Positions 18,252 to 28,624 of a DNA stretch of 64,000 nucleotides are shown piece by piece. Source of the stretch: Deltaproteobacteria bacterium. Lineage in GTDB: Bacteria > Desulfobacterota > Desulfobulbia > Desulfobulbales > Desulfurivibrionaceae. Both the position numbers and the translations under genes were made by a program. The first letter of the stretch is position 1. Every line of letters begins with the position of its first letter. Where the stretch lies: assembly GCA_013349295.1 (NCBI GenBank), contig DUZW01000007.1, positions 1 to 64,000 of the forward strand. The letters are read 5' to 3'. The notes beneath the pieces were generated by a model, which did not search any database, was not told the DNA's origin, and was given only the letters and a program-made list of their open reading frames with translations.

Positions 18252-19346
18252 TTAATACTCCTTGATCACGTTATACAGGGTGTCCCGTTCCACCGGTTGC
18301 CGCCCTGCATCCCGGATCAACCGGATCAACTCGGTGTCGGCCATGGTTCCACCGGTTTCACCGCCGGCCATGTGGGTGATCAATTCCTCCTTCACCGTGC
18401 CGTCCACATCGTCCGCCCCGAAGGAGAGGGCTATCTGGGCCAGTTTTGGGCCGATCATCACCCAGTAGGCCTTGATGTGCGGAAAGTTGTCGAGAAAACA
18501 ACGGGCCACCGCGATATTTTTCAGGTCGTCAAGGCCGCTGGTCTTGGCCAGCTCGTGCATCTCGGTGTTCTTCGGGTGGAAGGCAAGGGGGATGAAGGTG
18601 AGAAAACCGCCGGTTTCATCTTGGGCCGTGCGGAGCATCTCCAAGTGTTCCACCCGCTCCTCAATGGTCTCGATATGACCGTAAAGCATGGTGGCGTTGC
18701 TCTTGAGCCCGAGCCGATGAGCTGCCTTGGCAACCTCGAGCCAGCCCTCGCCGGAAAGCTTCTTTTCGCAGGTCCGCAGCCTGATCCTCGGGCTGAACAC
18801 CTCGGCCCCGCCGCCTGGAATCGAGCCGAGTCCGGCTGCAATCAGTTCCTCGAGGGTCTCGGTCACGGATTTTCCGACAAGGGTAGCCAGATGGGCAATC
18901 TCCACGCAGGTAAAGGCCTGGATATGAATCTCCGGCCGTACCGCTTTAATCCCGCGCAGCATGTCCAGATAATACTGAAAGGGCAAATCCGGGTGAATCC
19001 CCCCCACCACATGCACCTCGGTGATGGGCTCGGACAGCCGCTCCCGCACCTTGGCCTTAACCTGATCCACCGTCATCTCATAGGCCTGCGACGATTCCTT
19101 GTCCTTGCCGAATGCACAGAACTTGCAGAGGTTGGTGCAGATATTGGAATAATTTACGTGCTGGTTATAGATAAAATAGGCGCGGTCGCCGTTGATCCGC
19201 TCCCGCACGAGGTTGGCCATGTAGCCGACCGCCAGGATATCGTTGCTTTTATACAGCCGGACCCCGTCCGCAGCGCTGAGCCGCTTCCCGACCTTGACCT
19301 TCTCCAAAATATCTCCAAGCCCTGCCGCAACCACCATCTGTTCCAT
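18252..19346 (-). CDS. mqnE: Aminofutalosine synthase MqnE
   Basis: 364-aa radical SAM enzyme that joins 3-enolpyruvylbenzoate with SAM-derived adenosyl to give aminofutalosine. The cluster motif is CTNLCKFC after YFIYNQHVNYSNI. Other MqnE marks are EVHVVGGIHPDLPFQYYLDM, GLGSIPGGGAEVFSPRIR and FIPLAFHPKNTEM. Its ATG lies three bases after the tetR stop, and its AGGAGA ribosome site is inside the tetR coding end, so the regulator and pathway genes are translated from one message. Confidence 0.94.
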   Translation of the reverse strand: MEQMVVAAGLGDILEKVKVGKRLSAADGVRLYKSNDILAVGYMANLVRERINGDRAYFIYNQHVNYSNICTNLCKFCAFGKDKESSQAYEMTVDQVKAKVRERLSEPITEVHVVGGIHPDLPFQYYLDMLRGIKAVRPEIHIQAFTCVEIAHLATLVGKSVTETLEELIAAGLGSIPGGGAEVFSPRIRLRTCEKKLSGEGWLEVAKAAHRLGLKSNATMLYGHIETIEERVEHLEMLRTAQDETGGFLTFIPLAFHPKNTEMHELAKTSGLDDLKNIAVARCFLDNFPHIKAYWVMIGPKLAQIALSFGADDVDGTVKEELITHMAGGETGGTMADTELIRLIRDAGRQPVERDTLYNVIKEY

Positions 19347-19349
19347 TAC

Positions 19350-20036
19350 TCAATCTCCTGCGCTGTTGCACTGCTTCCTGTCAGGTTGCAATCCGGTACG
19401 CAGCACCGCAACCATACTGTCAATCTCATCATGAAGCCGACCGACCGGCATCCCGGCCAGCGCCAGACCCCCATCAAGATACGGCTGGGCATATCCTTGC
19501 AGAAACCGATCCAGCATCGCATCCAGAATAAACACCACCTTGTGCGCCGGGATATCGCGGCGCAACACGCCCTGCCCCATGGCCCGATCCGCAAGCGGCC
19601 CGAAATACTCCAGGGAAAAGAGACGAACCCTGGCCACCAGTTCCTCCCGACGCGGGACATCACGTTCGAAGAGCACCTTGAGATAGACCTGAAAATATTC
19701 CGGGTGGTGGTCGATGAAGTCTATCCCTGCCAATAATACCTGCTTGGCCACGGCAAAAAAATCATCCTGACCATTGCCTGCGACCGATGCCTTGACATAC
19801 CGTTTCACCTGCTGGGTGAAATGGTCAAACACATGCAGGAACAGGGCTTCCTTGTTGTCGAAATACTGGTAGAGCGAGCCTTTGGATATCCCCAGTCGTT
19901 TGACGATACTGTTAAGACTTGCCCGCTGGTAACCCTGTGCGGCAAATTCGGTAACCGCCGCACGCACGATGCTTTCGCGCTTTTCCGGCGGCAGGTTCTC
20001 GAAGGTTTGTTTTGGCTGAACAAGAAGGGTATCCAT
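19350..20036 (-). CDS. TetR-family transcriptional regulator heading the mqn operon
   Basis: 228 aa. The N-terminal TetR HTH (residues about 18-66) reads RESIVRAAVTEFAAQGYQRA then SLNSIVKRLGISKGSLYQYF and DNKEALF. The C-terminal ligand domain is not recognisable by eye. A 26-bp palindrome covers the start codon, so autorepression is likely and would extend to mqnE onward. It also faces the fadD island, 486 bases away, so it could control both. TetR regulators of fatty-acid genes are common, but the ligand is unknown here. Confidence 0.88.
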   Translation of the reverse strand: MDTLLVQPKQTFENLPPEKRESIVRAAVTEFAAQGYQRASLNSIVKRLGISKGSLYQYFDNKEALFLHVFDHFTQQVKRYVKASVAGNGQDDFFAVAKQVLLAGIDFIDHHPEYFQVYLKVLFERDVPRREELVARVRLFSLEYFGPLADRAMGQGVLRRDIPAHKVVFILDAMLDRFLQGYAQPYLDGGLALAGMPVGRLHDEIDSMVAVLRTGLQPDRKQCNSAGD

Positions 20037-20060
20037 AATATGACCAGGCGGTCACATTAT
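20035..20060. promoter_or_regulatory. 26-bp palindromic operator at the tetR start codon
   Basis: Symmetric sequence: ATAAT-A-TGACC-AGGC-GGTCA-C-ATTAT. Both 5-base blocks on each side pair perfectly around an AGGC centre. The left edge includes the first two bases of the tetR start codon (20036 and 20035). It is the expected form and position of an autoregulatory TetR dimer site. Confidence 0.72.
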
Positions 20061-20065
20061 GAAAA

Positions 20066-20094
20066 ATCAAAAATATCTGCAAGATATTTTTGAT
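20066..20094. repeat. AT-rich 29-bp inverted repeat beside the tetR operator
   Basis: Perfect 13-bp arms (ATCAAAAATATCT and AGATATTTTTGAT) around GCA, five bases beyond the operator. It could be a second protein site or a hairpin in the tetR promoter region. Confidence 0.6.
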
Positions 20095-20277
20095 GATTTC
20101 CAGGATCATATCGGAATAATCCACGAAAACGCCCCCCAGAGAAGGTTGTCAAAAAAAAAATCGTTGACCACCTGGGATTATCCCGGTCAAACGCGCCTGG
20201 GATGACACTCCGGCATTGGATTTCGGGAAATTCTTTCCGGCGGAGTAAACCCGCCGGGACTTCAATGTCGTATGTGC

Positions 20278-20306
20278 TTGACAGTGATTGCCGCCTTTCG
20301 ATAAAA
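20278..20306 (+). promoter_or_regulatory. Candidate promoter for the fadD lipid operon
   Basis: TTGACA at 20278-20283, then ATAAAA at 20301-20306 with 17-base spacing, about 217 bases upstream of the fadD ATG. The -10 is weak. Confidence 0.4.
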
Positions 20307-20522
20307 AGAATGTAGGGGCTACAAATTAAGGGGCGTCTTGGATTCTTTCCAGCTTTTTCACCCCACCCGAATTACCGATTCTTCATCATCGCCCGCAGAC
20401 CACATTATTACCCGGACCAAGACCGGCTCCCTTTCGAGCAACGCCGATGAGCAGCAAGACCCAAGCGAATCGCCACCCTTTATATACGATTTAAAAAATA
20501 CCGACCGGAAAGGGGGGCCACC

Positions 20523-22202
20523 ATGGAACCAGTCTGGCTGAAGCATTATCCCCAAGGCATTCCGGCCGAGGTCGACACTTTTCGCTTTACCTCTCTTAGG
20601 GAGATGTTTGCGCAGAGTTGCGGGCGGTTCCGCGAGCATCCCGCCTTCACCAACATGGGCGTGGCCATGACCTATGGCGACCTCGACCGGTTTTCCCGTG
20701 ATTTCAGCGCCTACCTTCAGCAGGTTCTCGGTCTGCGCAAAGGCGAGCGCGTGGCCATTATGCTGCCCAACCTGCTGCAATATCCGGTGGCGCTGTTCGG
20801 TGCGCTACGCGCGGGCCTGATTGTAGTCAACGTCAATCCGCTCTACACCCCGCGCGAATTACAATACCAATTAGCCGACTCCGGGGCGGTGGCCATAGTG
20901 GTACTGGAAAATTTCGCCCATACGCTGCAGGAAGTCATCGGCGCAACTGCGGTGCGCCATGTTATCACTACTCAGGTGGGGGATATGTTCCCGCCGATGC
21001 GGGCGCAGCTTGTCAACTTCGTCATCAAATGGATCAAACGCATGGTGGTGCACTGGGACCTGCCCGGGGCAATTGCCTTCAACACCGCGCTGAAACTTGG
21101 CGCAGCCCATGCGCTCGTCGATGTGGAGCTTGGCCATACGGATATCGCCTTCCTGCAATATACGGGCGGAACAACCGGGTTGGCCAAGGGCGCGATCCTG
21201 ACGCACGGCAACATGGTGGCCAACGTGGAGCAAACCTCGGCCTGGATCGGCGCGACACTGAAGGAAGGCGAAGAAGTGATCGTCACGCCGCTGCCGCTCT
21301 ACCATATCTTCGCCCTCACCGCCAATCTGCTCACCTTTGTCAAATGGGGAGCAAACAACATTCTGATCACCAATCCCCGCGACATCCCCCGCTTCGTGCA
21401 GGAACTCAAAAAAAACCGCTTCACCGCCATAACCGGCGTCAACACCTTGTTCAATCTTCTCCTGCACGAGCCGGGTTTCAAGTCTGTAAAAAAGGCCAAC
21501 GCCGGCGCCCTGAAAGTTTCGGTGGCGGGCGGCATGAGCGTGCAGCGCTCGGTGGCTGAAGGCTGGCAGCAGATGATGAGACTGCCGCTCATCGAGGGTT
21601 ATGGTTTGACCGAGGCCTCCCCCATCGTCTGTGTGAATCCGCTGGACGCCAAGACATTCAGCGGCAAAATCGGCATCCCGATTCCCTCCACCCGGGTGGA
21701 GATCAGAAACGAGGAAGGGTGCGAGCTCCCCCTGAACGAGATGGGAGAAATCTGCGTGCAAGGGCCGCAAGTAATGCGGGGCTACTGGAACATGCCGGAA
21801 GAAACCGCCCGTGTTCTCAGCGCCGATGGCTGGCTGCGCACCGGGGACATCGGCATGATGGACGAACGCGGCTATATCCAATTCATCGACCGCCACAAGG
21901 ACATTATCGTGGTCTCCGGCTTCAAGGTCTACCCCGCCGAGGTCGAGGAGGTGGCGATGATGCATCCCGGGGTAAAGGAGGTCGGCGCCGTGGGCGCCCC
22001 TGATGAGAAAAGCGGCGAGGTGGTCAAGGTATATGTGGTAAAAAAGGATACAGCCCTCACCGCCGAATCGCTGATTGCACACTGCAAAGCGAATCTGACC
22101 GCATACAAGGTGCCGAAGCATGTGGAGTTTCGGGAAAAACTTCCCAAGTCACCCATCGGCAAGATTCTGCGCAGGAAGCTGAAAGAGGAGCAGGTGACAT
22201 GA
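20523..22202 (+). CDS. fadD: Long-chain fatty acid-CoA ligase (FadD type)
   Basis: 559-aa AMP-forming acyl-CoA synthetase, close in order and wording to gammaproteobacterial FadD: MLPNLLQYPVALFGALRAG, VVNVNPLYTPRELQYQL, the P-loop YTGGTTGLAKGAILTH, NILITNPRDIPRFVQEL, EGYGLTEASPIVCVNP, TGDIGMMDERGYIQFIDRHK and the catalytic-Lys end SPIGKILRRKLKEE. It activates free fatty acids in the cytoplasm. Codon use looks richer in GCG/CGC than the flanks, as for the next genes, suggesting an acquired block. Its stop overlaps the next small ORF by ATGA. Confidence 0.93.
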   Translation: MEPVWLKHYPQGIPAEVDTFRFTSLREMFAQSCGRFREHPAFTNMGVAMTYGDLDRFSRDFSAYLQQVLGLRKGERVAIMLPNLLQYPVALFGALRAGLIVVNVNPLYTPRELQYQLADSGAVAIVVLENFAHTLQEVIGATAVRHVITTQVGDMFPPMRAQLVNFVIKWIKRMVVHWDLPGAIAFNTALKLGAAHALVDVELGHTDIAFLQYTGGTTGLAKGAILTHGNMVANVEQTSAWIGATLKEGEEVIVTPLPLYHIFALTANLLTFVKWGANNILITNPRDIPRFVQELKKNRFTAITGVNTLFNLLLHEPGFKSVKKANAGALKVSVAGGMSVQRSVAEGWQQMMRLPLIEGYGLTEASPIVCVNPLDAKTFSGKIGIPIPSTRVEIRNEEGCELPLNEMGEICVQGPQVMRGYWNMPEETARVLSADGWLRTGDIGMMDERGYIQFIDRHKDIIVVSGFKVYPAEVEEVAMMHPGVKEVGAVGAPDEKSGEVVKVYVVKKDTALTAESLIAHCKANLTAYKVPKHVEFREKLPKSPIGKILRRKLKEEQVT

Positions 22203-22306
22203 TCGCCCTGGCGCTCTTAATCTTTCAGGCACATCTGCCCCAAGCCACGCATGCAGACATCTCCCGCCTCGACCCGGTGCCTGCCCAACGCCAGGAGGGG
22301 AAATGA
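22199..22306 (+). CDS. 35-codon ORF coupled to both neighbours
   Basis: It starts MIALALLIFQAHLPQATHA and ends ADISRLDPVPAQRQEGK. Its ATG overlaps the fadD stop (ATGA at 22199-22202) and its TGA overlaps the start of the next gene (ATGA at 22303-22306). A GAGGAG ribosome site lies about eight bases ahead. The first 19 residues look like a short signal peptide with a cleavable ATHA end. I do not recognise it. It may be a real secreted or membrane micropeptide, or mainly a device for translational coupling. Confidence 0.55.
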   Translation: MIALALLIFQAHLPQATHADISRLDPVPAQRQEGK

Positions 22307-23085
22307 ACGGATTGCCCCACTCAACCCCGCGCGCCAAGGCGCTCATGCTCTGGTTGCCGGCTGCGGCTTTAGCCGGCCTGGCATGCGCGCTGCCGCGAAT
22401 CCCCCAACCACAGCACTATCATGAATTCGCCGACCAACGCACCATCTTCTGGGTGCCGAATTTCCTCAATACCTCCTCCAATATCTTGTTTGTACTGGCG
22501 GGACTGGCTGGCCTGCGCTTCCTGCACAGCGAGACAGGACGAGATAGTTTCCTTAAGCCGCGCGAGGCGCTGCCTTACGCGCTGTTCTTTTTCGCCGTTA
22601 TCCTGACCGGCTTCGCCTCCGGCTATTATCATCTTGCCCCCGACAACGATCGGCTGATGTGGGATCGGGCGGCGATTACCCTGGCACTCGTCTCCTGGTT
22701 CGATGCAATCCTGTGCGAACGCGTCACTCTTACCACCGGGCTGCGCCTGCTCCCGCTGATGTTTACCGCCGGACTGGGCAGTGTTGCCTACTGGGGCTTA
22801 AGCGAACTGCACGGCCGGGGCGACCTGCGCGCCTATGGCCTGATCCAGTGTTATCCGATACTGCTGATCCCGCTGCTGCTCAGGCTGTATCCACCGCGTT
22901 ACACCGGCGACAAGGACATCCTGACCGTAATCGGCCTCTACCTGATAGCCTTGCTGTGCGATTTCAACGATCGTCGAATTGCTACGCTGATCGAGATGAT
23001 CAGCGGACACACGACAAAACATCTCCTCGCCGCGTTGTCGGCATATTGGGTGGTGATCCGATTAAAACAGCGCCGGATCCTCTAA
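22303..23085 (+). CDS. Ceramidase-like CREST-superfamily membrane hydrolase
   Basis: 260 aa with about seven hydrophobic segments. The alkaline-ceramidase (PF05875-type) metal site is complete: Ser106 and His110 in SGYYH, Asp121 in WDR, and His236/His240 in SGHTTKHLL. The S-x3-H-x10-D and HxxxH spacings equal those of human ACER3 as I recall it. NFLNTSSNILFVLAGLAG is the usual family N-terminal helix. It would cleave an amide-linked acyl chain from a lipid inside the membrane; the true substrate is unknown, since ceramide synthesis genes are not seen here. It is coupled to the upstream small ORF. Confidence 0.8.
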   Translation: MNGLPHSTPRAKALMLWLPAAALAGLACALPRIPQPQHYHEFADQRTIFWVPNFLNTSSNILFVLAGLAGLRFLHSETGRDSFLKPREALPYALFFFAVILTGFASGYYHLAPDNDRLMWDRAAITLALVSWFDAILCERVTLTTGLRLLPLMFTAGLGSVAYWGLSELHGRGDLRAYGLIQCYPILLIPLLLRLYPPRYTGDKDILTVIGLYLIALLCDFNDRRIATLIEMISGHTTKHLLAALSAYWVVIRLKQRRIL

Positions 23086-23096
23086 ATAAAGAGAGA

Positions 23097-24416
23097 ATGA
23101 TGTCATCATATTCCAAGAGCGTGCTGCGTTCCGATGTCAGTCCACATGAGCTGTGGGCCTGGGCGATGTACGACTTTGCCAATTCCGGCTACACCACGGT
23201 GGTTATCACCGCACTGTTCAATGCCTATTTCGTCACGGTGGTTGCGGGCGACGCGCCCTGGGCCACCCTGGCCTGGACCTCCGCCCTGTCCGTCTCCTAT
23301 GCTCTGATCGTGGTAAGCGCTCCGCTGCTCGGCGCCTGGGCCGACCTGTATGCGGCAAAAAAACGGCTGCTGGCAATCACTACCGCAGGCTGCGTGCTGT
23401 TCACCGCGCTGCTCTATTTTTCCCAGCCTCAAACGCTGTGGCTTGCCATCGTATGCGTGATCGCGTCCAACTTCTTTTTCGGCAGCGGCGAGAATCTGAT
23501 CGCGGCGTTTCTCCCGGAAATCTCCCGATCCAGCGCCTTGGGCAGGGTGTCCGGCTGGGGCTGGAGCCTCGGTTACCTCGGCGGCTTGACCACCCTCGGC
23601 CTTTGTCTGATGTATATTGCTTGGGCCGAAGCGCAAGGCCAGAGCCCGAACCGGTTTGTGCCGGTAACAATGCTCATCACCGCCGGCGTATTTGCCCTGG
23701 CCAGCATTCCGACCTTTCTGCTGCTGCGCGAACGCACTGTGCCGCAGCCTGGCCAAGGAATCCGGTTCCGGGATGCGTGGCAAGAGGTATGGCGAATCTG
23801 GGGCCACCTGCAGCAATTCACCGATCTGCGCCGCTTCCTGCTCTGCAGCCTGTTTTATCAGTCCGGAATACAGGCAGTGATCACCCTGACCGGCATCTAT
23901 GCTGTAGAAGCGATGCAATTCACCACCCAACGGATTTTACTGCTGGTCCTTGCAGTCAATATCACGGCAGCGCTCGGCGCCTTCTTCTTCGGGCATCTGC
24001 AGGACCGCATCGGCCATGTCCGCGCCATCGCCTTGACGCTGGCGGGGTGGATCGTGGCCATCATACTGGCTTGGGCGGCACGCGAGCCTCCGTTGTTCTG
24101 GGCAGCGGCGAATCTTGCCGGCCTGTGCCTGGGTGCCTCGCAATCCGCCGGACGCGCTTTTGTGGGCCTATTGACTCCACCCTCCCGCCTGGCTGAGTTC
24201 TTCGGCTTCTGGGGGCTGGCGGTGAAGCTCGCCGCCATTGCCGGACCGCTCACCTACGGCATCACCACCTGGCTGACCGGCGGCGATCATCGACTCGCGC
24301 TGCTGCTCACCGGCTGCTACTTCGTCATCGGACTTATCCTACTATTGAACATACAGGAAGTACGCGGCAGGCAAACAGCGCTACATGCCGATCATCAGGC
24401 AGGCAAGACACCTTGA
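23097..24416 (+). CDS. UMF1-family MFS transporter
   Basis: 439 aa from the first of two adjacent ATGs, 11 bases after the ceramidase-like stop. About 12 membrane helices. ELWAWAMYDFANSGYTTVVI, the loop LLGAWADLYAAKKRLL and FFFGSGENLIAAFLPEIS match the Atg22/UMF1 branch of the major facilitator superfamily, and QSAGRAFVGLLTPPSRLAEF in the second half is also typical. The substrate is not known for most members; between a lipid hydrolase and an acyltransferase it may move a lysolipid or lipid product across the inner membrane (inference). Confidence 0.82.
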   Translation: MMSSYSKSVLRSDVSPHELWAWAMYDFANSGYTTVVITALFNAYFVTVVAGDAPWATLAWTSALSVSYALIVVSAPLLGAWADLYAAKKRLLAITTAGCVLFTALLYFSQPQTLWLAIVCVIASNFFFGSGENLIAAFLPEISRSSALGRVSGWGWSLGYLGGLTTLGLCLMYIAWAEAQGQSPNRFVPVTMLITAGVFALASIPTFLLLRERTVPQPGQGIRFRDAWQEVWRIWGHLQQFTDLRRFLLCSLFYQSGIQAVITLTGIYAVEAMQFTTQRILLLVLAVNITAALGAFFFGHLQDRIGHVRAIALTLAGWIVAIILAWAAREPPLFWAAANLAGLCLGASQSAGRAFVGLLTPPSRLAEFFGFWGLAVKLAAIAGPLTYGITTWLTGGDHRLALLLTGCYFVIGLILLLNIQEVRGRQTALHADHQAGKTP

Positions 24417-24435
24417 CCAGGGAGAAGAAGAATAC

Positions 24436-27261
24436 ATGAACCCACCTCCCTCACAACCATCCCCCGACTTTTCCAGCGATGGAGAGCAGCTCCTCTCCAT
24501 CGTGCGCAAGCTTGCCCGTGAACTGAAACCAAACGCAAACACCATGGAGCACCTGGGGCTGAATCATGGGCTGGAGCGCGATTTCGGTTTGGACAGCCTG
24601 ACGCGAGTGGAACTGCTTGTCCGCATCGAGCGCGACATGGGGGTCAGACTGGCCGAGACGGCGTTGGCCGAGGCTGAAACGCCCGGCGATCTGCTGCGTC
24701 TGATGAGAGGCACACTTCTTGGCGAAACACCTGCCCGACCCCATATCTCACCGCAAACTCCAAGCGAAATTCATCATCCTCCGGAAACCATCGCCACACT
24801 GACCGAGATGCTCGACTGGCATGTCGCGCAACACGGCGAGCGGACGCACATCACTTTGTATGTCGAAGAGGAGCGCACGGAGGAGATCACCTATCGCATG
24901 CTGCAAGCAGAGGCCCGGACACTGGCGGCCGGATTGCTCGCTCAAGGGGTTACTGCCGGAGAGAGAATCGCCATCATGCTGCCCACCGGACGGGACTTTT
25001 TCTCCGTTTTCTATGGCACGATCTATGCCGGTTGCGTGCCGGTACCGCTCTACCCGCCGGCTCGTCCGTCGCAGCTCGAGGATCACATGCGGCGCATCGC
25101 CGGGATCGTCGTCAATGCCGAAGCCGCCATGCTCATCACCGATGAGCGGGCCAAGCCGCTCGGCCACCTGCTCCGTGCACAATGCCCCGCGCTGCGCTCC
25201 GTTAAGACCGTCGCGGAACTAGCCTGCCCCGGCGGCACGCCACCACCCTTGCCAAGGCCAAACGCGCAGGACATCGCCTTCCTGCAATACACCTCCGGCA
25301 GTACCGGCAACCCAAAAGGTGTGGTGCTGACTCACGCTAATCTGCTCGCCAACTTGCGCGCGATGGAACAAGCCTCCGGCATTACCTCGACGGACATCTT
25401 TGTCTCCTGGCTGCCCCTTTACCACGACATGGGCCTGATCGGCGCCTGCATGGGCAGCCTCAGCTTCGGCTTTCGACTGGTGCTGATGTCACCCCTCGCC
25501 TTCCTCGCCAGGCCCAGCCGCTGGCTGTGGACCATCCACCGACATCGCGCCACTGTCTCGGCGGCGCCCAATTTTGCCTATGAACTATGCGCCAACAAGC
25601 TCAAAGATCGCGATCTCGACGGCCTTGATCTGAGCTGTTGGCGACTGGCTTACAACGGGGCCGAGTCGGTCAGTCCCGAGACGCTGACTCATTTTGCCAC
25701 GCGTTTTGCTCCCAAAGGTTTTCGCCCCGAAGCAATGACCCCGGTCTATGGCCTGGCGGAATCCTCCCTCGGACTGGCCTTTCCACCGCTTAAACGCGGA
25801 CCGCTCGTTGACCGAATTGATCGCGATGCACTTTTTGCTACCGGCATCGCCCGTATTGCGACGGCGGAGGATTCCTCCCCGCACCGCATCGTTTCTTGCG
25901 GCCTGCCCCTGTCCGGCCACTCCATCCGCATTGTCGACGCCAACGGCAGGGAAATGCCGGAACGCACCCAAGGACGCGTACAGTTTCAGGGGCCATCCGC
26001 AACCCGCGGCTATTTCCGCAACCCCGAGGCCACCCATCGCCTGTTCGACGGGGCATGGCTTAACACCGGAGATCTGGGCTATCTCGCAGCAGGAGAGCTC
26101 TACCTCACCGGACGCGAGAAAGATATCATCATTCGCGGCGGTCATAACATTCATCCCCAGGAACTGGAAGAAGCTGTAAACCAGGTGCCCGGCATCCGCA
26201 AAGGCGGGGTGGCGGTGTTCCCGGCCACTGACTCGCATACCGGCTCGGAACGGCTGGTGGTGCTTGCCGAGACGCGCGCGCACAGCATGATTGAGGAACG
26301 CAGTCGCATACGGGACGCAATCAACCATCTCACCATTGATTTGCTGGGACTACCCGCCGATGACATCGTGCTGGCGCCACCGCGCACCGTTCTCAAAACT
26401 TCCAGCGGCAAAATTCGCCGCGCTGCCTGTCGGGAACGCTACGAACGCGGTGAGTTGAGCAGAACCCAGCAACCACCATGGCTGCAATTAACGCGCCTGA
26501 CTTGCTCGGGCACTGCGGCACATGTCCGGCATTGGCTGAAACGCGGCATCGGATGGGTCTGGAGCGCTTGGGCCTGGGCGGTTTTTGCCGTCATCACCCC
26601 CTTCGCCTGGCTCCTGATCATACTTGCCCCAACGTTAAAGCTGCGCCGGCTCATGGCCAAGGCAAGCGCCCGTCTTTCCCTGGCCATGACAGGGCTGATG
26701 CCACGGGTGGAGGGCTTGCAGCACCTTGCCGAAAACACCCCGGTGATCGTGGTCTGCAATCACGCCAGTTATTTGGATGCCCTGATCCTCACGGCCATGC
26801 TACCTGCCAGATTCACCTACGTGACCAAACAGGAGCTGCTAGGTAAACCGTTTGCCGGCATCCCGCTGCGCCGGCTCGACAGCGCATTTGTTGAGCGTTT
26901 TGACAGCGCACGCGGCGTGGAGGACACATGCGGACTGGAGGAGCGGGCACGCATCGGCGCATCCCTGTTGTTTTTCGCGGAAGGTACCTTCCGAACCCTA
27001 CCGGGACTGCTGTCGTTCCGCATGGGGGCATTTATTGTCGCCGCACGCTGTAGTCTTCCGGTAGTACCTGTAACCCTGATCGGCACCCGCACTCTGCTGC
27101 GCGACGAAACATGGCGCCCGCATTACTGCAAACTCCAAATGCTGATCGACAAACCGGTATCGCCGGAAGGGGATAACGACTGGCAAAAGGCATTAAAACT
27201 TCGGGACACGGTGCGCGGTCGGATTCTGGAGCGACTGGAGGAACCGGATTCAACCTGTTGA
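24436..27261 (+). CDS. ACP - fatty acyl-AMP ligase - PlsC acyltransferase fusion
   Basis: 941 aa, start at ATG 24436 after GGGAGAAG. Residues 15-92 are an acyl carrier protein with the phosphopantetheine serine at 54 (FGLDSLTRVEL). Residues about 120-675 are a FAAL-type adenylating domain: YTSGSTGNPKGVVLTH (285-300), LPLYHDMGLIGACMG (326-340), YGLAESSLG, NTGDLGYL and SSGKIRR with catalytic Lys659. A hydrophobic anchor (about 703-732) leads to a PlsC/AGPAT domain (about 745-940) with HX4D at His776-Asp781 (NHASYLDAL) and FAEGTFR at 847-853. It can plausibly activate an acyl group, load it on its own ACP and transfer it to a lysolipid. Confidence 0.88.
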   Translation: MNPPPSQPSPDFSSDGEQLLSIVRKLARELKPNANTMEHLGLNHGLERDFGLDSLTRVELLVRIERDMGVRLAETALAEAETPGDLLRLMRGTLLGETPARPHISPQTPSEIHHPPETIATLTEMLDWHVAQHGERTHITLYVEEERTEEITYRMLQAEARTLAAGLLAQGVTAGERIAIMLPTGRDFFSVFYGTIYAGCVPVPLYPPARPSQLEDHMRRIAGIVVNAEAAMLITDERAKPLGHLLRAQCPALRSVKTVAELACPGGTPPPLPRPNAQDIAFLQYTSGSTGNPKGVVLTHANLLANLRAMEQASGITSTDIFVSWLPLYHDMGLIGACMGSLSFGFRLVLMSPLAFLARPSRWLWTIHRHRATVSAAPNFAYELCANKLKDRDLDGLDLSCWRLAYNGAESVSPETLTHFATRFAPKGFRPEAMTPVYGLAESSLGLAFPPLKRGPLVDRIDRDALFATGIARIATAEDSSPHRIVSCGLPLSGHSIRIVDANGREMPERTQGRVQFQGPSATRGYFRNPEATHRLFDGAWLNTGDLGYLAAGELYLTGREKDIIIRGGHNIHPQELEEAVNQVPGIRKGGVAVFPATDSHTGSERLVVLAETRAHSMIEERSRIRDAINHLTIDLLGLPADDIVLAPPRTVLKTSSGKIRRAACRERYERGELSRTQQPPWLQLTRLTCSGTAAHVRHWLKRGIGWVWSAWAWAVFAVITPFAWLLIILAPTLKLRRLMAKASARLSLAMTGLMPRVEGLQHLAENTPVIVVCNHASYLDALILTAMLPARFTYVTKQELLGKPFAGIPLRRLDSAFVERFDSARGVEDTCGLEERARIGASLLFFAEGTFRTLPGLLSFRMGAFIVAARCSLPVVPVTLIGTRTLLRDETWRPHYCKLQMLIDKPVSPEGDNDWQKALKLRDTVRGRILERLEEPDSTC

Positions 27262-27380
27262 AACTGAAACAGAAAAAACAGTCTGGGATTATCTGCTGAA
27301 AAGCACAATGAGGTTTAAGATCGCGGAGAAATAAACAGGATATCAGCTGAAAAAAACAGGCAAAACTTCCCCGACGGCTC

Positions 27381-28379
27381 CTACAACTCACTCCTGTTAA
27401 CCCATTGCAGGATGGTGTTGATTCCCTCCGCCGTCGAAACCTTGGGGAAATATCCAAGATCGCGGTTGGCGTTCTCGATGGAGAACCAATGGGATTTCGC
27501 CAGTTGCACGGCAAGAAAGCGCGTCATGCAGGGCTCCCGTTTGATCCGTGCAAGGGCAAAAGCCTTTTCCATGAACATCCCACTCAGGTAAGCCTTGTGA
27601 AAAGGGATGCTCTCCTCGACAATGGGAATATCAAGCCGTCTGAAAAACTTATTGAGCCAATTCCAAAGATTGACCGGCTCTCCCTGGGAGATAAAATACG
27701 GTTTTCCCGCTCCCGAGGCCGGGCCATGCAAGTTTTTCGCCGCCAGGACGAAGGCATCCGCCGCATTATCGATATAGGTAACATCAACGAGATTGTGACC
27801 GTCCCCGACACGTTTCAACTGTCGGCATCTGGCATGACCTAAAAGGCGGGGGATAAAATTGGCGTCTCCAGGCCCCCAGACAAGATGAGGACGCAAGGCC
27901 ATGGTTTTCAGGGAGGCGGAGTTGGCCTCGAGGACCATTTTTTCGGCAATGGCCTTACTCCGGACATAGTCAGAGAGGTAATTCCGGGCGTAGGGAGTGC
28001 GCTCGTTCACCCCGCACAGGTCGTCTTTCTGGTAAACAACCCCTGGCGTACTGCCATAGACGAGGGCCGCAATGTGATTTGCGCGACAGGCGTCCAAGAC
28101 ATTCTGGGTTCCAACGACATTGGTCCGGTAATACTCCTTTTTGTCTCCCCAGATGCCGTTCTTGGAGGCAAGATGGATTACGGTGTCGTAACCGGCCAGG
28201 GAATTTTTCAGGAAATCCGCATCCCCGATATCACCTGAAAAAACCCGTACCCCTAAGGGGTCTGCTTCGAGAAAAGAACTTCGAGCGACAACGGCTGTCT
28301 CAATACCCTCAGCCACAAGGCGTTGAACCAGCGCCCTGCCGACAAAACCACTTCCGCCAAGCACCACAATACGCTGCAT
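27381..28379 (-). CDS. Extended SDR, OleD-like (3-beta-HSD family) dehydrogenase
   Basis: 332 aa. The NAD(P)-binding GGSGFVGRAL is at residues 8-17. The catalytic Tyr and Lys are in SDYVRSKAIAEK. ALRPHLVWGPGDANFIPRLL and DVTYIDNAADAFVLAAKNL with GKPYFISQGEPVNLWNWLN closely resemble OleD, the 2-alkyl-3-ketoalkanoate reductase of head-to-head olefin synthesis. No oleA, oleB or oleC gene is in the window. It faces the end of the lipid island. Bacterial ceramide synthesis also uses an epimerase-like SDR, so a sphingoid-lipid role is an alternative. I am sure of the family, not the substrate. Confidence 0.72.
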   Translation of the reverse strand: MQRIVVLGGSGFVGRALVQRLVAEGIETAVVARSSFLEADPLGVRVFSGDIGDADFLKNSLAGYDTVIHLASKNGIWGDKKEYYRTNVVGTQNVLDACRANHIAALVYGSTPGVVYQKDDLCGVNERTPYARNYLSDYVRSKAIAEKMVLEANSASLKTMALRPHLVWGPGDANFIPRLLGHARCRQLKRVGDGHNLVDVTYIDNAADAFVLAAKNLHGPASGAGKPYFISQGEPVNLWNWLNKFFRRLDIPIVEESIPFHKAYLSGMFMEKAFALARIKREPCMTRFLAVQLAKSHWFSIENANRDLGYFPKVSTAEGINTILQWVNRSEL

Positions 28380-28624
28380 CCACCCTCACCTTTTCGCAGA
28401 GATGAAAACTTCCTCTACACGGCTCCCCAACCACCCCTCATGCAACACTTATGTTGTTATACCCATTAACGGTAAAGTGCAAATAAAATTCAGCGGATCG
28501 CTCAACAAATGTATGACAACCTGCTGTTTTTTATTTCTTTTCCAGGCGAATAACCTCGTTCCAGAATCAACAAAAGCACCTCGCCTCAATCGCTTTTTAT
28601 TACTATTGACCCAAACACCTCAAT

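Follow-up and report, generated by a model that had tools for sequence, protein, structure and literature searches.

The closest described counterpart of the locus considered here is LplT-Aas, the lysophospholipid remodelling complex of E. coli (PMC11416262). Regarding the other protein families represented, the alkaline ceramidases and Per1 have a C-in topology and Per1 has PLA2 activity (PMC3146951), ACER3 mutated at any of the five signature residues is inactive or almost inactive (PMC9436119), and the substrates of the UMF1 family are listed as unknown (PMC3924187). In the window, i.e., the whole stretch of 64,000 nucleotides that was analyzed, FadD is encoded together with a ceramidase-like hydrolase (CER), a carrier of the UMF1 family, and a fusion of ACP, FAAL, and PlsC domains (Table 1). 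The operon is likely a new version of lysolipid or acyl-chain recycling. The best supported reading is that it would work like LplT-Aas, and we give somewhat better than even chances to its being a deacylation-reacylation module, for remodelling or repair of a membrane glycerolipid, built from non-orthologous parts. The earlier note had proposed a new system; its novelty is tempered because fusions of the same combination, FAAL plus lysophospholipid acyltransferase, had already been noted and counted as a recruitment of FAALs to PKS/NRPS-independent functions (PMC8460268). The relevant passage of that paper gives the fusion no specific function, whereas here it has a genomic context.

Table 1. 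Positions in the window of the genes of the block, of the inserted segment, and of the adjoining TetR gene.
Feature	Position	Strand	Remarks
TetR gene	19350-20036	-	Island neighbor
Inserted segment with the four-gene operon	20092..27394		Approximate bounds, from island-free relatives
FadD, long-chain acyl-CoA synthetase	20523..22202	+	PF00501 305 bits, PF13193 66 bits
35-codon ORF	22199..22306	+	Overlaps both neighbors by ATGA
CER, CREST-superfamily (ceramidase-like) integral membrane hydrolase	22303..23085	+	PF05875 26.3 bits (Pfam gathering score 32.5); 8 predicted TM helices
UMF1 / Atg22-like MFS carrier	23097 (or 23100)..24416	+	PF11700 128.1 bits (cut-off 24.1)
ACP-FAAL-PlsC fusion, 941 aa	24436..27261	+	All above cut-off: PF00550 (PP-binding) 34.6, PF00501 (AMP-binding) 235.7, PF01553 (Acyltransferase) 75.3 bits

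The block had been described as tightly packed on one strand, with intact domain motifs and active residues, and a re-reading of the sequence bears out both points. The two ATGA overlaps are followed by gaps of 11-14 bases (CER-UMF1) and 19 bases (UMF1-fusion), the best start of the fusion being ATG 24436, 19 bases past the UMF1 stop (24416) and with an RBS-like GGGAGAAG; the start listed for it, ATG 24385, would overlap UMF1. The CREST residues S106, H110, D121, H236, and H240, the serine of the ACP DSL motif, the AMP P-loop, and the PlsC motif NHASYLD are all present. FadD scores 815 bits with the PRK08974 FadD model, under its cut-off of 884. There are indeed four large genes, but "four-enzyme island" was a loose wording because one of them encodes a carrier, which leaves three enzymes. 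The GC-richer block of the earlier note is borne out in part: the island genes are richer in GC (58-61%) than the window (53%) and than the flanking OleD (54%) and TetR (55%) genes, but neighboring MqnC/MqnE also reach 58%. An Rfam scan of 19300-28500 gave no match.

CER shares with the CREST superfamily (ACER3, Per1/PGAP3, AdipoR, SIDT1/2) the modeled fold, the five signature residues, and the predicted C-in topology, and differs from it by an extra N-terminal helix and a PF05875 score below the cut-off. The signature (three His, one Asp, one Ser) is invariant in 51/51 homologues. In the AlphaFold model (pLDDT 94), the seven-helix CREST fold is predicted, and ACER3 (6g7o) is the top match both by Foldseek (TM 0.58) and in VIA (Z 17.3, 210 residues, rmsd 3.5), with SIDT1/2, SID-1, and the adiponectin receptors near it. 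The assignment nevertheless rests mainly on the five residues, since unrelated GPCRs reach Z 14-16 in VIA. At the sequence level, the CER profile reaches SID-1-type proteins (E ~0.001). Lysine and arginine amount to 20.2 per 100 aa on the predicted inner loops vs 6.5 on the outer ones, and in 50 of 51 sequences the positive-inside rule predicts eight helices, a C-in orientation, and an active site facing the periplasm. This predicted topology would agree with that of the alkaline ceramidases and Per1, and with the need for a carrier to move the product inward. A search of viral contigs found no relative of CER.

With regard to the fusion, its ligase profile matches solved structures of FAALs with up to 424 bits and those of other adenylating ligases with at most 152, so that by profile comparison the domain is to be placed among the FAALs, even though its score with the PRK09192 FAAL model (468 bits) is below the cut-off of 600. 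The PlsC domain has the HX4D motif as NHASYLD, with N775, H776, and D781 invariant, as are the catalytic motifs of the fusion in general. An EGTR motif with its arginine is typical of lysophosphatidate acyltransferases, i.e., PlsC proper. This arginine is absent from 13/13 aligned proteins, which have EGTF, EGTL, or EGAF instead, and its absence suggests that the fused PlsC domain may use an acceptor other than lysophosphatidate.

The carrier is a clear match to the UMF1 family (TC 2.A.1.24, Atg22-like, PF11700), from which it differs in being tied here to lysolipid genes. Its model (pLDDT 91) has the general MFS fold, and the fold search was uninformative because MFS proteins matched in general, the lipid carriers Spns1, Spns2, and MFSD2A appearing among many others without being singled out. 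In the literature, Atg22 and lysophospholipid were found mentioned together just incidentally.

As in LplT-Aas, an MFS carrier adjoins a PlsC domain and an AMP-forming fatty acid activator working through ACP. Unlike in LplT-Aas, the carrier is of another MFS family, the ligase is of the FAAL rather than the Aas type, the domain order is ACP-FAAL-PlsC and not PlsC-Aas, and the operon adds a hydrolase and FadD. The earlier note had likewise said that domain order and families depart from LplT-Aas. In the profile searches, LplT (NF008397) is absent from the seven NCBIfam matches of UMF1 up to E 1, and the fusion scores 148.6 bits against the 1221 of NF006386, far less than with the FAAL models. 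By sequence, neither the carrier nor the ligase is thus a member of the LplT-Aas families.

We infer the whole of the following cycle, including its catalytic steps, the transport step and its direction, the substrate, the role of FadD, and the single transcript. With its active site on the periplasmic side of the inner membrane, CER, as a Zn-type CREST hydrolase, would cut off an acyl chain, yielding a free fatty acid and a lyso-lipid. The latter (or the acid) would be carried by UMF1 to the cytoplasmic leaflet. A fatty acid would be adenylated by the FAAL domain and loaded onto the ACP of the fusion; the PlsC domain of the same protein would pass the chain to the lyso-lipid, and FadD would channel surplus acid to CoA. 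The linkage evidence does not discriminate between lipid classes. A more specific proposal, that of a mobile cycle in which the CREST hydrolase is a periplasmic-face phospholipase or amidase, UMF1 a lysolipid flippase, and the fusion a re-acylase, together an independent counterpart of LplT-Aas, is tentative and credited with clearly less than even chances. If the cycle is true, a function would be at hand for bacterial UMF1/Atg22-like carriers, which would gain their first substrate, as well as for bacterial ceramidase-like CREST proteins and the common ACP-FAAL-PlsC fusions. There would also be a second route of lysolipid repair where LplT-Aas is absent, and UMF1 plus the fusion should substitute for lplT-aas in E. 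coli.

The genomic associations of the parts bear on the lysolipid reading in both directions. In 10 of the 25 other fusion-bearing genomes of the order, no more than 2.1 kb separate UMF1 from ACP-FAAL-PlsC, the carrier gene being upstream of the fusion in six and downstream in four, and the two genes co-occur in the order (Fisher p 7e-5, ignoring kinship). LplT was not detected in 17 members of the genus and is inversely associated with UMF1 (3/13, p 0.015, ignoring kinship). This adjacency, the lack of detectable LplT in the genus, and the position of CER genes behind LplT-PlsC-Aas-type fusions (see below) speak for the reading; against it are the losses of CER and UMF1 in two relatives (G008/G009) and the Gammaproteobacteria, where CER mostly stands alone and UMF1 is beside FAAL-PlsC at one and nearby at one of 40 loci. 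Mutual exclusion of LplT and FAAL-PlsC, also considered, is not seen in the order, four genomes of which share both.

The fusion belongs to a widespread family, found in 66/369 genomes sampled from one class, and commonly occurs with neither CER nor UMF1. This, together with the usual role of FAALs in feeding biosynthetic lines (PMC11837247) and another acyl-CoA ligase often found behind the fusion, would suit a different scheme, in which fusion and FadD assemble a dedicated membrane or storage lipid de novo from free fatty acids, with export by UMF1, trimming or tailoring by CER, and no lysolipid salvage. Such a scheme is considered unlikely, in that the island is devoid of synthase, amine-forming, or sugar-transfer genes and CER is also found next to LplT-PlsC-Aas-type fusions, which are known to re-acylate lysolipids. 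Regarding the ligase mentioned, a protein of ~570-630 aa is encoded directly behind ACP-FAAL-PlsC in many genomes (L051-L054, L155, L159, L160); the one scanned, from L054, has FadD11 as its best NCBIfam match, and UMF1 is next to it, a second version of a ligase-carrier-fusion set.

CER is rare in the phylum, being found in four further genomes of 395 besides G033, G090, and G094 of the order, i.e., seven loci outside the genus, or eight when counting a second, distant copy carried by G008 within the genus. Three of the seven (G033, G094, and G138) are directly behind LplT-PlsC-Aas-type fusions. In G033, CER overlaps by 4 bases an upstream PlsC-ACP-Aas fusion with an N-terminal MFS part, this fused LplT-Aas form (NF006386) having an internal ACP domain; in G094, CER is directly downstream of the same fusion type, the contig end truncating that fusion; and in G138, the fusion upstream of CER reaches 1273 bits vs the cut-off of 1221 for NF006386 (acyl-[ACP]-phospholipid O-acyltransferase). 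An AMP-ligase is encoded just upstream of CER in G288. CER occurs in 42/369 genomes of the class of Methylotenera, where most neighbors in the 40 CER neighborhoods examined besides that of Methylotenera (L031) are unrelated to lysolipid genes. CER is nevertheless found there just before LplT-PlsC in G708 (full CER) and G591 (shortened CER), with LplT-PlsC ~5 kb away in G577 and G698, and in G681 an Aas-LplT pair is ~2 kb from the CER operon. A different stable neighborhood, directly downstream of radA, is found in Nitrosospira and Nitrosomonas (L033-L037, L039, L113; also G807).

The four-gene set is part of a 7.3-kb insertion. Nine genomes of the same genus have the empty site, with a TetR-OleD spacing of ~110-215 bases, and the similarity of the window to this site ends at 20091 and restarts at 27395. 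The island is found between TetR and OleD in the window, G001, and G008, whereas the same gene set is at other positions in G004, G015, and G016, and a further site is used in G009. Gene order is conserved in G000, G001, G004, G015, G016, Methylotenera (L031), and another betaproteobacterium (L032), so that the arrangement recurs, more than expected by chance, in four other genomes of the genus and in two betaproteobacteria. Identity to the betaproteobacterial sets is 60-78%, with 78% for FadD, 62% for CER, 76% for UMF1, and 72% for the fusion in Methylotenera. In the trees, the copies of the genus cluster with those of Methylotenera and the other betaproteobacterium (support 98/97 for UMF1 and 100/100 for the fusion), and the remaining copies sampled from the order fall outside this cluster. 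The UMF1 and fusion trees and the Methylotenera identities indicate horizontal transfer of the operon, in either direction. Inspection of the island ends revealed no terminal repeats or transposase.

By the earlier note's own criterion, scattered and unlinked homologues would refute its proposal; the close set, kept in two distant lineages, does not go that way. CER is usually solitary in the Gammaproteobacteria. This last fact, the differing insertion sites within one genus, and the gene losses in G008 and G009 could point to a chance-assembled or selfish mobile cassette, whose four genes would have separate lipid roles and travel together without a joint pathway. This is deemed very improbable, given the overlapping reading frames and the fact that CER and Aas-type fusions, as well as UMF1 and FAAL-PlsC, have come together again independently, far above chance adjacency in binomial figures that assume a 0.4% chance and ignore kinship. 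The parts of the set are nonetheless separable: CER and UMF1 are absent at the G008 site and only fragments of CER are left in G009, FadD and FAAL-PlsC remaining in both. An obligate four-part system is unsupported in view of these sister losses, the mostly solitary CER, and the rarity of UMF1 by FAAL-PlsC in Gammaproteobacteria. The G008 FadD (L045 8225-9894) is broken into two frames, which fits island decay or a sequencing error.

The 35-codon ORF of the earlier note exists, with its ATGA overlaps, but has no counterpart in sister loci, where fadD and CER are separated by a few bases (G001) or overlap (G004/G015/G016). A functional peptide is rejected on the grounds of this lack of conservation. 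In both betaproteobacterial loci, a gene for a 402-417-aa alpha/beta-hydrolase lipoprotein (lipobox) sits between fadD and CER, and the ORF, which occupies its position, is on that positional ground probably the scar of such a deleted gene. In register with the 3' end of the hydrolase gene, 21/28 bases match, but similarity to the gene overall is weak, the score being equaled by 25/500 shuffles for L031 (3' end) and 344/500 for L032, with p 0.03 or 0.22 in the peptide test. Only the 3' end is left of the gene that precedes CER in G653. The lipoprotein hydrolase, the second hydrolase downstream in L031, the FadD in the operon, and the mobility between lineages might be taken to indicate a scavenging kit, in which CER (with the betaproteobacterial hydrolase) would digest exogenous lipids, UMF1 import the products, and FadD/FAAL-PlsC use them for growth or membrane. 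We regard this as improbable, CER being an integral membrane enzyme and a search of 97 relatives, island carriers among them, having found no counterpart of the lipoprotein hydrolase. A hydrolase-CER pair recurs in two distant genomes, whose CER genes (L048 6132-6827, L139 7764-8516) adjoin a similar small alpha/beta hydrolase (LLHGLARS...NYPSR).

Regarding the flanks, the OleD-like 2-alkyl-3-oxoalkanoate reductase gene (window 27381-28379; ~354 bits, below the cut-off of 580) is regarded as outside the island because it is conserved in 13/17 members of the genus. Control of the island by the neighboring TetR is not favored, as the TetR palindrome also occurs in island-free genomes. This palindrome (TGACC-AGGC-GGTCA, window 20040-20062) lies just upstream of TetR and is conserved in each of the nine island-free relatives compared; it is a possible operator for TetR and for mqnE/mqnC behind it.
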